Positions 3,256 to 32,057 of a stretch of DNA of 32,057 nt are shown piece by piece (positions within the stretch are counted from its first letter, which is position 1; the number at the start of each line of letters is the position of its first letter). Under the pieces are notes generated by a model. The model did not search any database and had not been told where the DNA came from. It saw only the letters and a list, made by a program, of their open reading frames with translations. Origin of the DNA: an uncultured Bacilli bacterium (lineage in GTDB: Bacteria; Bacillota_I; Bacilli_A; RF39; UBA660); NCBI GenBank assembly GCA_947628365.1, contig CANQZN010000005.1, forward strand, positions 1 through 32,057, written 5' to 3'. The position numbers were made by a program, and so were the translations under genes.

Positions 3256-3284
3256 TTGACACCGGGGGGGGGGTAATATATAAT
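3256..3284 (+). promoter_or_regulatory. Poly-G-spacer promoter, copy 1 (10 G, 17-bp spacer)
   Basis: TTGACA 3256-3261, cc, G10 (3264-3273), taata, TATAAT 3279-3284. Confidence 0.85.
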
Positions 3285-3313: not shown

Positions 3314-4621
3314 ATGAGAATAATTAACAAGAAATATTTATTAATAATAATTTTGGTAGGAGTAATAATAACCGGTATCATAATATTTAAACCAAAAGAA
3401 AATATTAAACTTGATAATGTAATATCAAAACAAAAAGTAAATAATAAAACATTTGCTATGTATACTGAAACAGATAATGGATATGAAGAATATAAAGATA
3501 ATAAATTTCCAGAAGGATATGTCTTAAATACAAATGAAAGTAAATGTATAGATAATAATGGAAAAGAAGTAGATAATATATTAAGTTTTAATAATGGAGA
3601 AGTGACTATAACAAGTGGAAAAACAACTTATTGTTATTTATATTTTGATAAGAGTTTAGGACTTGAAATAAAAGAAAAAGAACCCAAAGGGTTAAGTTTA
3701 GATAAAGAACGAGGAGCAATGTATCGATTTCAAGGTCAAGCGAGAGATGCAGAAGGAAATGAACTAGTAGATAATTATATATGTTTTGGAACAAGTGACA
3801 AAGATACATGTGTAAAAGATACAGATCATTATATGTATAGAATAATAGGAATAGAAACATCTACAGGAAGAGTAAAAGTAATAAAAAAAGAGGCATTAAA
3901 TAACACAGTAAATTGGTGGGATGATTATGATCATGATAAAACATTCCCAGAAAGTAAAATATATGAAGCAATAAGTGGAGATAAATTTTTAACCAATAAA
4001 GACTATATTCCACTAGGTTGGGAAGAAAAAATATCAACTAATACATGGATGTATGGAGATATGTTGAGCAACGATGTATTAGGAGCACGACAAACAGGAG
4101 AGGGTTTATATCAAACGGAAACCGGAAAGAAAGCAACAAAATGGTATAATTACGCAACGAAAGAAACGCCAGGTGCAATACAAGCAACAGTAGGATATGA
4201 GTCCTCACCATATAAAGGACAAACAGTATATTATACAGACGGAAAAGGAAAATGGACAAAGTCATTTGATTCAAAGGTAAGTTTAATGTATCTACACGAT
4301 TATCATTATTCAGTAAGTGATACAGCAAATTGTCAAATTACTGCAGGACAATATGCGGAGTGTAAAACAGGCTGGATGCATTTAAGTAATAATGATTCAG
4401 GTCTTACTGGTGAAGGTGTTCATGAATGGTCGATGTCACGGTATGGTTGGGATACTTTTTATGGCTTTTTTCATGGTCTTGGAATAAGTATCTATGGTTA
4501 TACTAGTAACGGTATCTTGATGAGCTATTTTTCTATTCGCCCTGTATTTTATATAAACGCCTCAGAAAAATTATTAAGTGGAACCGGAACGATAACAGAT
4601 CCTTTTATGATAAAAGAATAA
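3314..4621 (+). CDS. Predicted surface/secreted variable protein, copy 1: TM anchor, stalk, C-terminal FSIRPVF module
   Basis: N-terminal hydrophobic segment MRIINKKYLLIIILVGVIITGIIIF. Paralogous to 29258..30529 over most of its length. C-terminal SIRPVFYINASEKLLSGTGTITDPF. Confidence 0.85.
   Translation: MRIINKKYLLIIILVGVIITGIIIFKPKENIKLDNVISKQKVNNKTFAMYTETDNGYEEYKDNKFPEGYVLNTNESKCIDNNGKEVDNILSFNNGEVTITSGKTTYCYLYFDKSLGLEIKEKEPKGLSLDKERGAMYRFQGQARDAEGNELVDNYICFGTSDKDTCVKDTDHYMYRIIGIETSTGRVKVIKKEALNNTVNWWDDYDHDKTFPESKIYEAISGDKFLTNKDYIPLGWEEKISTNTWMYGDMLSNDVLGARQTGEGLYQTETGKKATKWYNYATKETPGAIQATVGYESSPYKGQTVYYTDGKGKWTKSFDSKVSLMYLHDYHYSVSDTANCQITAGQYAECKTGWMHLSNNDSGLTGEGVHEWSMSRYGWDTFYGFFHGLGISIYGYTSNGILMSYFSIRPVFYINASEKLLSGTGTITDPFMIKE
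4424..4545 (+). other. Hypervariable block (about 4424-4526) plus conserved 3' anchor (4527-4545) in variable protein copy 1
   Basis: Aligned by hand to 30335-30456: same length, about 47/99 nt differ, scaffold residues conserved, followed by an identical 19-mer atttttctattcgccctgt. Confidence 0.7.
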
Positions 4622-28057: not shown

Positions 28058-29164
28058 TTGGTGATAATTATGGAATATATAATAATTGGCTTACTTATAT
28101 TAATAGTTATTTTATTATTAATAATATTACTAAAAAATAATGGTAGTAAAGATTTAATTGAAAGAATTGGTAGACTTGATACTAGTTTAACTAAAGATAT
28201 TGGTGATTTTAAATTAAATTTTAGTAAAGATTTAAGAAGTGATTTTGAAGTCTTAGATAATAAAATAGAATATAAACTTAATTTAATTAATGATCGAGTA
28301 AATAATCAATTATCTGAAAATTTTGAGAAAAGTAATAAAACATTTATGAATGTTTTAGAAAGATTAAATAAGATAGATGAAGCTCAAAAGAAAATTGATA
28401 GTTTAAATACTGAAATAGTTTCCTTGCAAAGTGTTTTAACTGATAAAAAGACAAGAGGAACATTTGGTGAGGTTAATCTAGAATATATTTTAAATAATGC
28501 TTTCGGTTCTGCTAAAGGTGGTATCTATGATACACAACATAAGATGAGTAATGGCTATGTTGCTGATTGCCTATTATATGCTCCATCTCCTTTAGGAGTT
28601 ATTGCTATTGATAGTAAATTTCCTCTTGAGAATTATCAAAAAATGGTTGATAAAAATAGAACTAAAGAGGAAAGAGCAATATTAGAGAAAAGTTTTATAA
28701 ATGATGTGAAAAAACATATTAATGATATTTCTGAAAAATATATTATACCGGGTGAAACTAGTGATGAAGCTATTATGTTTTTACCAGCAGAAGCTTTATT
28801 TGCAGAGATAAATGCTTATCATCCTGAATTACTCAATTATGCTTATTCTAAAAAAGTTTGGATTACTGGTCCAACTACTTTAATTAGTACTTTATCAATT
28901 ATTAGTATGATTTTAAAAAATATGGAAAGAGATAAGTATGCTAAAGTTATCCATGAAGAATTAGATAAATTAGGTGTTGAATTTAGTAGATATAAAGATA
29001 GATGGGATAAATTATCTAGAAGTGTTAAAAGTGTTAATCAAAGTTTAGATGAATTACATACCACAACCGAAAAGATTACTAAAAGATTTGAAAGTATTAA
29101 AAATGCTGAAATTGATAAATTAAAAGGCGAAGAAATAAAATTAGTTCCTGATAGTGAAGAATAA
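28058..29164 (+). CDS. rmuC: DNA recombination protein RmuC
   Basis: KKTRGTFGEVNLEYIL, AIDSKFPLENYQKMV, EAIMFLPAEALFAEI, ITGPTTLISTLSIISM. Confidence 0.94.
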   Translation: MVIIMEYIIIGLLILIVILLLIILLKNNGSKDLIERIGRLDTSLTKDIGDFKLNFSKDLRSDFEVLDNKIEYKLNLINDRVNNQLSENFEKSNKTFMNVLERLNKIDEAQKKIDSLNTEIVSLQSVLTDKKTRGTFGEVNLEYILNNAFGSAKGGIYDTQHKMSNGYVADCLLYAPSPLGVIAIDSKFPLENYQKMVDKNRTKEERAILEKSFINDVKKHINDISEKYIIPGETSDEAIMFLPAEALFAEINAYHPELLNYAYSKKVWITGPTTLISTLSIISMILKNMERDKYAKVIHEELDKLGVEFSRYKDRWDKLSRSVKSVNQSLDELHTTTEKITKRFESIKNAEIDKLKGEEIKLVPDSEE

Positions 29165-29194
29165 AAATTGTTGTAAGTTAAACAACATTTTTTT
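29165..29194 (+). terminator. Conserved cassette hairpin plus T-tract (copy 2)
   Basis: aaaattGTTGtaagttaaaCAACattttttt. Confidence 0.65.
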
Positions 29195-29203
29195 GATAAC
29201 AAC

Positions 29204-29228
29204 TTGACACCGGGGGGTAATATATAAT
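29204..29228 (+). promoter_or_regulatory. Poly-G-spacer promoter, copy 2 (6 G, 13-bp spacer)
   Basis: TTGACA 29204-29209, cc, G6 (29212-29217), taata, TATAAT 29223-29228. Confidence 0.8.
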
Positions 29229-29257
29229 TATCTTATAAAATAGGAGAGAGTTATTTT

Positions 29258-30529
29258 ATGAGAATAATTAACAAAAAATATTTATTGATAATATTGTTGG
29301 TAGGAGTAGTACTAACTGGTGTCATAATATTGAAACCAACTAAAGAAGTTAAACTAGATAATGTTATCTTAAAACAAGAGGTAAATAATAAAACTTTTGC
29401 TATGTATACAGAAACAGATAATGGTTATGAGGAATATGAAGGAAATAAATTTCCAGATATGTATGTACTTAATCTAACCGAATCAAAATGTATAGATAAT
29501 AATGGTAATAAATTAGAAGATGTATTAAGTTATGAAAATGATAAAGTAACAATAACAAGCGGAAATACAACATATTGTTATTTGTATTTTGATAAGAGCT
29601 TAGGCTTAGAAATAAAAGAAAAGAATCCAAACAAATTAAGTGAAGAAATCAAAGGAGCTATGTATAGATTTCAAGGCCAACAAAAAGATGATGTTCGAAA
29701 TTATATCTGTTTCGGAACTAATGATCAAAATACTTGTAAAGGTGATACTGATCACTATATGTATAGAATAATAGGAATAGAAGCAGAAACAGGAAGAGTA
29801 AAAGTAATAAAGAAAGAAGCCTTAAATGAGAAATATCCATGGTATACAGATAAAGATGCAGATATAGATTTTCCAAAAAGCAAAATATATGAAGCACTAA
29901 ATGAAGATAAATTTTTAAAAAATATATCTTATGTACCAACAGATTGGAACGCTAAAATATCCGATAATACTTGGCTATATGGCGATATGCTTTATAATGG
30001 TTCTTCAGGAGAAACAAGTCAAACTGGAAAAGAATTATATTTAATAGAAACTGGACAAAAAGAAACAAAATGGTATAATTATGCTACAGAGGATACCACA
30101 GGAGCACTACCACATTTAGTAACTGATAAAAATTCTGGAAATATAGGTAAAACAATATATTATACAAATGGAAGTGGATATTGGACAGAAACATTTGAAA
30201 GTAAAGTAAGTTTAATGTATTTACATGATTATTATTATTCTGTAAGTGATGAAGCAAATTGTGATTCGGATGAAAATTGTAAAAGTGGTTGGATGCATTT
30301 ATCTCAAAATGATAAAAATGTATCAAACGGTATCGAGTGGACAATGACACGTCAAGGCTGGCGTATTGTTTTGGGCTGGTTTGACGGATTAATAGTTCCC
30401 GATGATGGTAATATACGTACAGGGGGATTACTTAATAATTTTTCTATTCGCCCTGTCTTCTATATCGATGCATCTGAAAAATTATTAAATGGAAAAGGTA
30501 CACTAGAAGATCCGTTTATAATAAAATAA
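29258..30529 (+). CDS. Predicted surface/secreted variable protein, copy 2
   Basis: Same leader, stalk (KTFAMYTETDNGYEEY..KCIDNNG..TYCYLYFDKSLGLEIKEK) and FSIRPVFYIDASEKLLNGKGTLEDPF C-terminus as 3314..4621. Confidence 0.85.
   Translation: MRIINKKYLLIILLVGVVLTGVIILKPTKEVKLDNVILKQEVNNKTFAMYTETDNGYEEYEGNKFPDMYVLNLTESKCIDNNGNKLEDVLSYENDKVTITSGNTTYCYLYFDKSLGLEIKEKNPNKLSEEIKGAMYRFQGQQKDDVRNYICFGTNDQNTCKGDTDHYMYRIIGIEAETGRVKVIKKEALNEKYPWYTDKDADIDFPKSKIYEALNEDKFLKNISYVPTDWNAKISDNTWLYGDMLYNGSSGETSQTGKELYLIETGQKETKWYNYATEDTTGALPHLVTDKNSGNIGKTIYYTNGSGYWTETFESKVSLMYLHDYYYSVSDEANCDSDENCKSGWMHLSQNDKNVSNGIEWTMTRQGWRIVLGWFDGLIVPDDGNIRTGGLLNNFSIRPVFYIDASEKLLNGKGTLEDPFIIK
30335..30456 (+). other. Hypervariable block (about 30335-30437) plus conserved 3' anchor (30438-30456) in variable protein copy 2
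   Basis: Aligned by hand to 4424-4545, same length, identical 19-nt 3' anchor. Confidence 0.7.
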
Positions 30530-31416: not shown

Positions 31417-31444
31417 AAAAGTTGAAAGTTAACAACATTTTTTT
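31417..31444 (+). terminator. Conserved cassette hairpin plus T-tract (copy 3)
   Basis: aaaaGTTGaaagttaaCAACattttttt. It lies in a divergent intergenic region, so it is not the 3' end of a co-oriented gene. Confidence 0.55.
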
Positions 31445-31453
31445 GATAACAAC

Positions 31454-31479
31454 TTGACACCGGGGGGGTAATATATAAT
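31454..31479 (+). promoter_or_regulatory. Poly-G-spacer promoter, copy 3 (7 G, 14-bp spacer)
   Basis: TTGACA 31454-31459, cc, G7 (31462-31468), taata, TATAAT 31474-31479. Confidence 0.8.
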
Positions 31480-31508
31480 TATCTTATAAAATAAAGGAGA
31501 AATATTTT

Positions 31509-32057
31509 ATGAGAATAATTAACAAAAAATATTTATTGATAATACTTTTGGTTGGAGTAATCATAACCGGTGTCATATTATTTAAACCAAAAGAAGAATT
31601 AAAATTATATGAAGTAAAATTACAAGATGATAATAAAAAAGATTTAGCTATTATGGTAGAACAATTAGATAAGAGTTATAAAGAAAATAATAAAATACCA
31701 TATAAAGGATATACATTAAATGAAACGATGACAAAATGTATAGATAATAATGGTAATGTAGTAAATGAAGAGATTACTTACGAAAATGGAACAATAACAA
31801 TAAGTACAGATAGAACAATATATTGTTATTTATATTTTGATAGACAAGACGAGATAGAAGATTTAAGTGGGCAAAATCATAATGGCAAAAATTATGCAGT
31901 AGAGTGGACAGAAGAAGGAATAACAACAAGCGTTGATTCAAATAATTTGGGCTATGTAGATTGTGGACTTGCAAAGTACGATTTTGAAGATTCAATAACT
32001 ATGGTAACTAGAGTAAAATTTAATGATTTAACCGGACAACAAGATTTTTTTGGAAAT
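31509..32057 (+). CDS. Predicted surface/secreted variable protein, copy 3, with LamG/ConA-like module; truncated by window end
   Basis: Leader MRIINKKYLLIILLVGVIITGVILF and KCIDNNG..YCYLYFD stalk shared with copies 1 and 2; then DLSGQNHNGKNY..GYVDCGLAKYDFEDSITMVTRVKF, typical of LamG/ConA-like lectin folds. Open to the window end. Confidence 0.8.
   Translation, partial: MRIINKKYLLIILLVGVIITGVILFKPKEELKLYEVKLQDDNKKDLAIMVEQLDKSYKENNKIPYKGYTLNETMTKCIDNNGNVVNEEITYENGTITISTDRTIYCYLYFDRQDEIEDLSGQNHNGKNYAVEWTEEGITTSVDSNNLGYVDCGLAKYDFEDSITMVTRVKFNDLTGQQDFFGN

Follow-up and report, generated by a model that had tools for sequence, protein, structure and literature searches.

A poly-G tract in the promoter spacer as a probable random switch for a dispersed family of putative surface proteins in an uncultured Bacilli bacterium

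The last gene on this stretch of DNA is preceded by a promoter with consensus -35 and -10 boxes and a run of seven G residues in the spacer between them, raising the question of whether the number of Gs determines if the gene is expressed and whether that number can change. The window, meaning the whole stretch of 32,057 nucleotides that was analysed, is the entire contig C5 of a genome of 1,103,092 bases in 88 contigs, estimated to be 92% complete; because the window is the whole contig, the gene starting at 31509 runs off its end. The promoter, its two sister promoters in the window, and the genes they precede are as follows.

3256..3284, plus strand: sister promoter with G10 and a 17-bp spacer, predicted on (motif search of the window)
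3314..4621, plus strand: gene of the G10 promoter, 435 amino acids, with the same N-terminus as the other two and a C-terminal module without assignment, ending in IRPVFYI
29204..29228, plus strand: sister promoter with G6 and a 13-bp spacer, predicted off (motif search of the window)
29258..30529, plus strand: gene of the G6 promoter, 423 amino acids, same family as the gene at 3314..4621 and 63% identical to it
31427..31444, plus strand: AGTTAACAACATTTTTTT block, present upstream of nearly all copies, with column conservation of 0.79-1.00 at positions -27 to -10
31454..31459, plus strand: -35 hexamer TTGACA, identical in 39 copies genome-wide
31462..31468, plus strand: G7 tract within the spacer, the sole part of the promoter core that varies among copies (G6-G10)
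31474..31479, plus strand: -10 hexamer TATAAT, giving a 14-bp spacer, predicted off by internal spacing calibration
31480..31508, plus strand: leader TATCTTATAAAATA with AAAGGAG as ribosome binding site; each of the 47 copies of the leader core is invariant or has a single mismatch
31509..32057, plus strand: gene of the 31454 promoter, truncated by the contig end, with an N-terminal membrane anchor, a shared domain of about 112 amino acids and a LamG/concanavalin-like module

The letters of the -35, G7 and -10 elements, their coordinates and the 14-bp spacer at 31454-31479 are all exact, with CC between the -35 and the G run and TAATA between the G run and the -10. TATCTTATAAAATAAAGGAG lies directly 3' of the -10 ending at 31479, and the ATG follows at 31509, a distance of 30 bp. 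The preliminary description had given the three spacers in the window as 17, 13 and 14 bp, and this is borne out by the G10 promoter at 3256, the G6 promoter at 29204 and the G7 promoter at 31454; the pattern occurs in none of 100 shuffles of the window. The homopolymeric tract is located wholly between consensus -35 and -10 boxes, as expected of a porA-type promoter. Within the upstream block, ATGTTG forms the left arm in 23 of 39 copies, where a terminator-like hairpin is predicted; the 31454 copy has a degenerate left arm and a weak predicted fold.

Copies of the promoter across the genome

A search of the 1.10-Mb genome with 4 to 16 Gs allowed identifies 39 exact copies of the motif, while a reversed control pattern has none. 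Searching for the -10/leader core, independently of the G tract, returns 47 copies with at most one mismatch each, none of them decayed, and four additional contig ends (C24, C27, C35 and C83) begin within this core. The array therefore comprises about fifty loci, which are dispersed across many contigs; the repeat breaks the assembly, so that many contigs end within the element. The preliminary description had called for a genome-wide motif search and had named a lack of other copies as an objection to its own reading, an objection removed by the 39 exact and at least 47 leader copies and their varying G length. Runs of at least seven Gs were also searched regardless of their flanks, with 100 of 101 overlapping places listed and their flanks then read. 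Nearly all of the runs examined belong to this element, the few exceptions being at C2:9022 and on C10, C17 and C39. Only two promoter copies deviate in their flanks, C8:16346 with an additional C and C15:12215 with TTGACAATC, the latter preceding a gene of another kind.

Across the 39 exact copies, tract lengths are G6 (one copy), G7 (seven), G8 (23), G9 (six) and G10 (two), and this difference among promoters with identical boxes and spacer flanks is likewise characteristic of the porA type. The largest tract is G10, so that tracts in this genome never extend beyond the 17-bp optimum. Neither the boxes nor the letters flanking the Gs vary across copies, and the leader is for the most part invariant as well; the promoter core and 14-nt leader stay nearly constant while the 27 coding regions compared diverge. 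Over 330 bp of their coding starts, median differences are 28% for the first codon position, 33% for the third and 38% for amino acids. An invariant promoter set against divergent coding regions indicates that the promoter is constrained or homogenised. The G count shows no phylogenetic signal when compared with gene distance (Mantel r = -0.11, P = 0.90), and the G difference averages 1.0 in the 15 closest gene pairs versus 0.97 over all pairs. This lack of correlation indicates that G length changes much faster than the genes do, as would be expected of a tract undergoing slippage.

At their right ends, contigs C77 and C30 share an overlap of 106 and 105 bases, respectively, in which the sole difference is G8 versus G7. 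The mismatch could be a trace left by the assembler of reads disagreeing on the tract, or the overlap could represent two separate recent copies of the element; the pair is the only direct hint of length heterogeneity at one locus.

Spacer length and predicted promoter state

The spacing preference of this genome was calibrated on 202 upstream regions without poly-G, amounting to about 279 kb in stretches that may partly overlap, with a promoter-like pair defined as two boxes of at most one mismatch each and the expectation taken from shuffles. Spacers in these regions peak at 17 bp, with 15 observed versus 2.0 in shuffles; five are of 16 bp, three of 18 bp and one of 14 bp, and none of 15 bp occurs among the 202 regions, a distribution that supports the off state proposed earlier for the 31454 copy. 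The usual spacing preference seems to hold for the sigma factor of this organism, and from the 17-bp optimum G10 is predicted to be on, G9 intermediate, G8 low, and G6 and G7 off. The 41 complete poly-G promoters have spacers of 17 bp (two), 16 bp (seven), 15 bp (24), 14 bp (seven) and 13 bp (one). Two promoters, including that at 3256 in the window, are thus predicted on and seven intermediate, and the remainder, the 31454 copy among them, are predicted low or off. The earlier suggestion that one or a few copies are expressed at a time fits these counts in the present assembly, however there is no sign of coordination or mutual exclusion, and independent switching of the copies is the simpler reading.

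Very probably, these roughly fifty sigma-A-type promoters, with their hypermutable G tract in the spacer, function as random on/off switches for a surface protein family. Slipped-strand mispairing would add or remove Gs, shifting the -10 relative to the -35. With G10, the polymerase would bind well to the 17-bp promoter and the gene would be on; G9 would be intermediate, G8 low, and G7 or fewer, as in the 31454 copy, essentially off. Each copy would drive its own membrane-anchored protein, in which the shared N-terminal domain is joined to a C-terminal module of one of three or more types, and a clonal population would therefore be a mosaic of surface types. From the sequence we infer that the tracts would slip in living cells, that transcription would depend on their length and that the genes would switch; the benefit may be the evasion of phage, antibody or grazers, or variation in adhesion. 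Counting against a switch are the single G length found per locus in the assembly, the lack of tracts longer than G10 and the position of G8 near the lower limit for fast slippage. A general repair defect was considered as the source of slippage and rejected on the presence of MutL, which is encoded in 34 of 38 genomes of the genus, this one included.

Alternatively, the spacers may be a form of fixed promoter tuning, in which a stable, selected length gives each paralog a constant level of expression without switching. Spacer length would be expected to predict promoter strength here as well, and a single G length is found per locus in the single assembly. However, G length lacks phylogenetic signal and differs between near-identical paralogs, two contig ends differ in G count alone, and stable tuning neither needs a pure G run nor would be confined to the spacer, as it would also use substitutions in the -35 and -10 boxes, of which the 47 leader copies have none. 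We regard fixed tuning as very unlikely.

The protein family and its members without poly-G

The products of all three window genes begin with MRIINKKYLL, and common to all copies are the N-terminal membrane anchor and the domain of about 112 residues, which contains conserved cysteines. Beyond this shared domain, at least three types of C-terminal module are found. The module of the gene at 31509 had been described as different from the others, and indeed it is of the LamG type versus another module in the other two window genes. The truncated window copy (31509..32057) alone has no family match in a domain scan; three full-length paralogs are 79-83% identical to the part in the window, and the one in L021 (79% identical) matches PF13385 (Laminin_G_3) at 2.9e-13, over the family cut-off. 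Other family members contain an ALK/LTK glycine-rich domain (PF12810, 3.6e-55). The commonest module is that of the genes at 3314 and 29258, to which Pfam, NCBIfam and the PDB give no assignment; a weak lead to DUF6273 (0.013) appears in 2 of 19, and an AlphaFold2 model built from seven sequences was too poor, with a mean pLDDT of 46. The anchor and the lectin-like modules suggest that the proteins of this family are exposed on the surface. A family gene on C32 is interrupted by a stop codon.

One paralog, L034:1-1100 (G000 C77), encodes a chimera in which the first 155 or so residues are of the commonest, non-LamG module type and the remainder belongs to the LamG type, which points to cassette recombination. 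Recombination among paralog cassettes may be the main source of variation in this family; gene conversion or recent copying would then account for the identical promoters, and the G tract would have no role. This reading is also favoured by the different poly-G genes that different species carry at one position beside rmuC and by contigs that break at the repeats. It accounts for the conserved flanks, but not for why the G count alone varies, and cassette recombination and G-tract switching can coexist; as the main source, recombination is judged unlikely.

The rmuC flank is an insertion hotspot. This flank, seen at 28058-29258 of the window and in L165, L173, L174 and L175, carries in several species a poly-G promoter and surface-type gene, which differ from species to species; most sister genomes have there a phosphoglycerate-mutase-like gene and, after it, a pduL-like gene.

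Two reverse transcriptases encoded in this genome, at C8:9197-9757 and C11:11189-11893, led to consideration of a DGR origin for the variable C-terminal stretch. This was rejected, as no template/variable repeat pair was recognised near either enzyme and that on C8 contains a VTG motif, which we take to be the mark of retron reverse transcriptases. The reverse transcriptase gene on C11, of no assigned type, is located downstream of four imperfect 255-nt direct repeats.

The surface protein family is found in 38 of 38 genomes of the genus, with 2 to 84 matches each. In several of these, some members lack poly-G and are adjoined by a divergent small XRE-like gene; such paralogs include L275 (G000 C29), L274 and L277, and in sister genomes L288, L290, L291, L292 and L293. 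Most of the XRE-adjoined members have a palindrome within or beside the promoter spacer, for example TTGACAATACAAAATAAGTTTTGTATAAT. The spacer is exactly 17 bp in all five operator promoters matched by the scan (L275 in this genome, L288, L290, L291 and L292), providing independent support for the prediction that promoters are active at 17 bp. Judging by gene type and layout, we take the XRE-like product to be a putative dedicated repressor of the single adjoining gene, and operator and repressor together would be a second, deterministic silencing route for members of the family. We tentatively suggest, at somewhat less than even confidence, that in this genus two interchangeable switches, both operating in the spacer, control the family, namely the random length of a poly-G tract for many members and a repressor-bound palindrome in a fixed 17-bp spacer for others. 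If true, members would be silenced either randomly or actively, resulting in a combinatorial surface.

Related lineages and known systems

The exact motif of this genome is absent from sister species. With the flanking letters free to differ, the same architecture occurs in no fewer than 25 of the 38 genus genomes, this one included (0 for the control); TTGACA is the -35 in 13 of these, and copies per genome number 41 in the present one and reach 38 in a sister species. This distribution bears on whether the G run could be a structural element or the binding site of a regulator shared by every copy, with its length incidental. Flanks and leader are conserved to the degree expected of a shared regulatory site; however, between sister species the letters beside the run change (CC/TAATA, CTC/TATTA, none/TAATATTT and AATTTTC/none) and the run itself keeps its place between the -35 and -10, a position in which its length necessarily affects the promoter spacing. 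A regulator site or structural element is thus highly improbable.

Among the 273 copies listed genus-wide, spacers of 15 bp (122) and 16 bp (116) are most frequent. G8 is the mode across the genus whether the non-G part of the spacer is 7 or 8 bp, on which grounds compensation across lineages between the non-G spacer length and the G length was rejected; the constant mode suggests that it is set by a slippage equilibrium and not by fine selection on the total.

A tighter TTGACA pattern was found in only 4 of 298 genomes drawn from the class, this one included, and viral contigs had no match to a related pattern. The public-genome matches listed include MAGs of 'uncultured Bacilli bacterium' labelled Lapin, French for rabbit, with patterns like those of the sister genomes; the organism is related to uncultured rabbit-gut Bacilli. 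The same layout is also found, among the matches listed, before predicted lipoproteins in chicken-gut Faecalibacterium and several gut Clostridia. Faecalibacterium MAGs from chicken gut and elsewhere hold, among these matches, many copies of aaatcgggccTTGACACC-Gn-TATGCTATAAT with G7-G10 (L060, L062, L066, L070, L074, L081, L082, L090, L098, L099, L101, L117, L125 and L126), preceding predicted lipoproteins (MKLKKIASLMLAGIMAVSMLTAC) where the gene is visible, and these apparently form an independent poly-G array. In another Bacilli group, TTGACAT-G8/9-TAGTTTTATAAT promoters are located before SipW/CalY-like secreted proteins (L088, L097, L102 and L109).

In porA of Neisseria meningitidis, a G tract between the -10 and -35 sets transcription with an optimum of 17 bp (PMC7864442), and the tract is inside the spacer as it is here. 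That system consists of a single porin gene, whereas here one promoter sequence is common to some fifty paralogs dispersed through the small genome of an uncultured Bacilli lineage. The poly-G of Treponema pallidum tp0126 is also situated between the -35 and -10, with a 17-bp optimum (PMC7864442). Tracts of tprL in vivo contain 7 to 11 Gs, mostly 9, however in tprL and its tpr paralogs the tract lies immediately 5' of the transcription start and it is the short tracts that are permissive (PMC7864442); the tpr family is also small and its proteins are outer-membrane proteins. Neisseria opc resembles the present case in that a promoter homopolymer (poly-C) controls transcription of a surface protein, and differs in that the tract encompasses the -35 region instead of lying within the spacer (PMC7864442). 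By analogy, the mechanism proposed here would be that of porA and tp0126 and is as such already known. Mycoplasma variable lipoprotein families likewise comprise many surface paralogs in small AT-rich genomes, under promoters with a poly-A spacer or GAA repeats; they differ in the repeat unit, in their lipoprotein anchors and in their usually clustered locus, in contrast to the dispersed copies here.

Apparently new are the scale, the uncultured gut Bacilli host and the apparent repressor control of some paralogs. In a search of mostly open-access literature, judged by titles and abstracts, no account was found of such an array in uncultured gut Bacilli or of the poly-G promoters of Faecalibacterium. 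To our knowledge, transcriptional spacer switching is known mainly from single pathogen genes, and about fifty such promoters within 1.1 Mb would give this uncultured gut lineage a very dense contingency system. The array represents a natural series of spacer lengths in otherwise identical promoters, and arrays of this kind in commensals make the drivers of surface diversity in the healthy gut, be they phage, antibody or niche, testable from existing metagenome reads.
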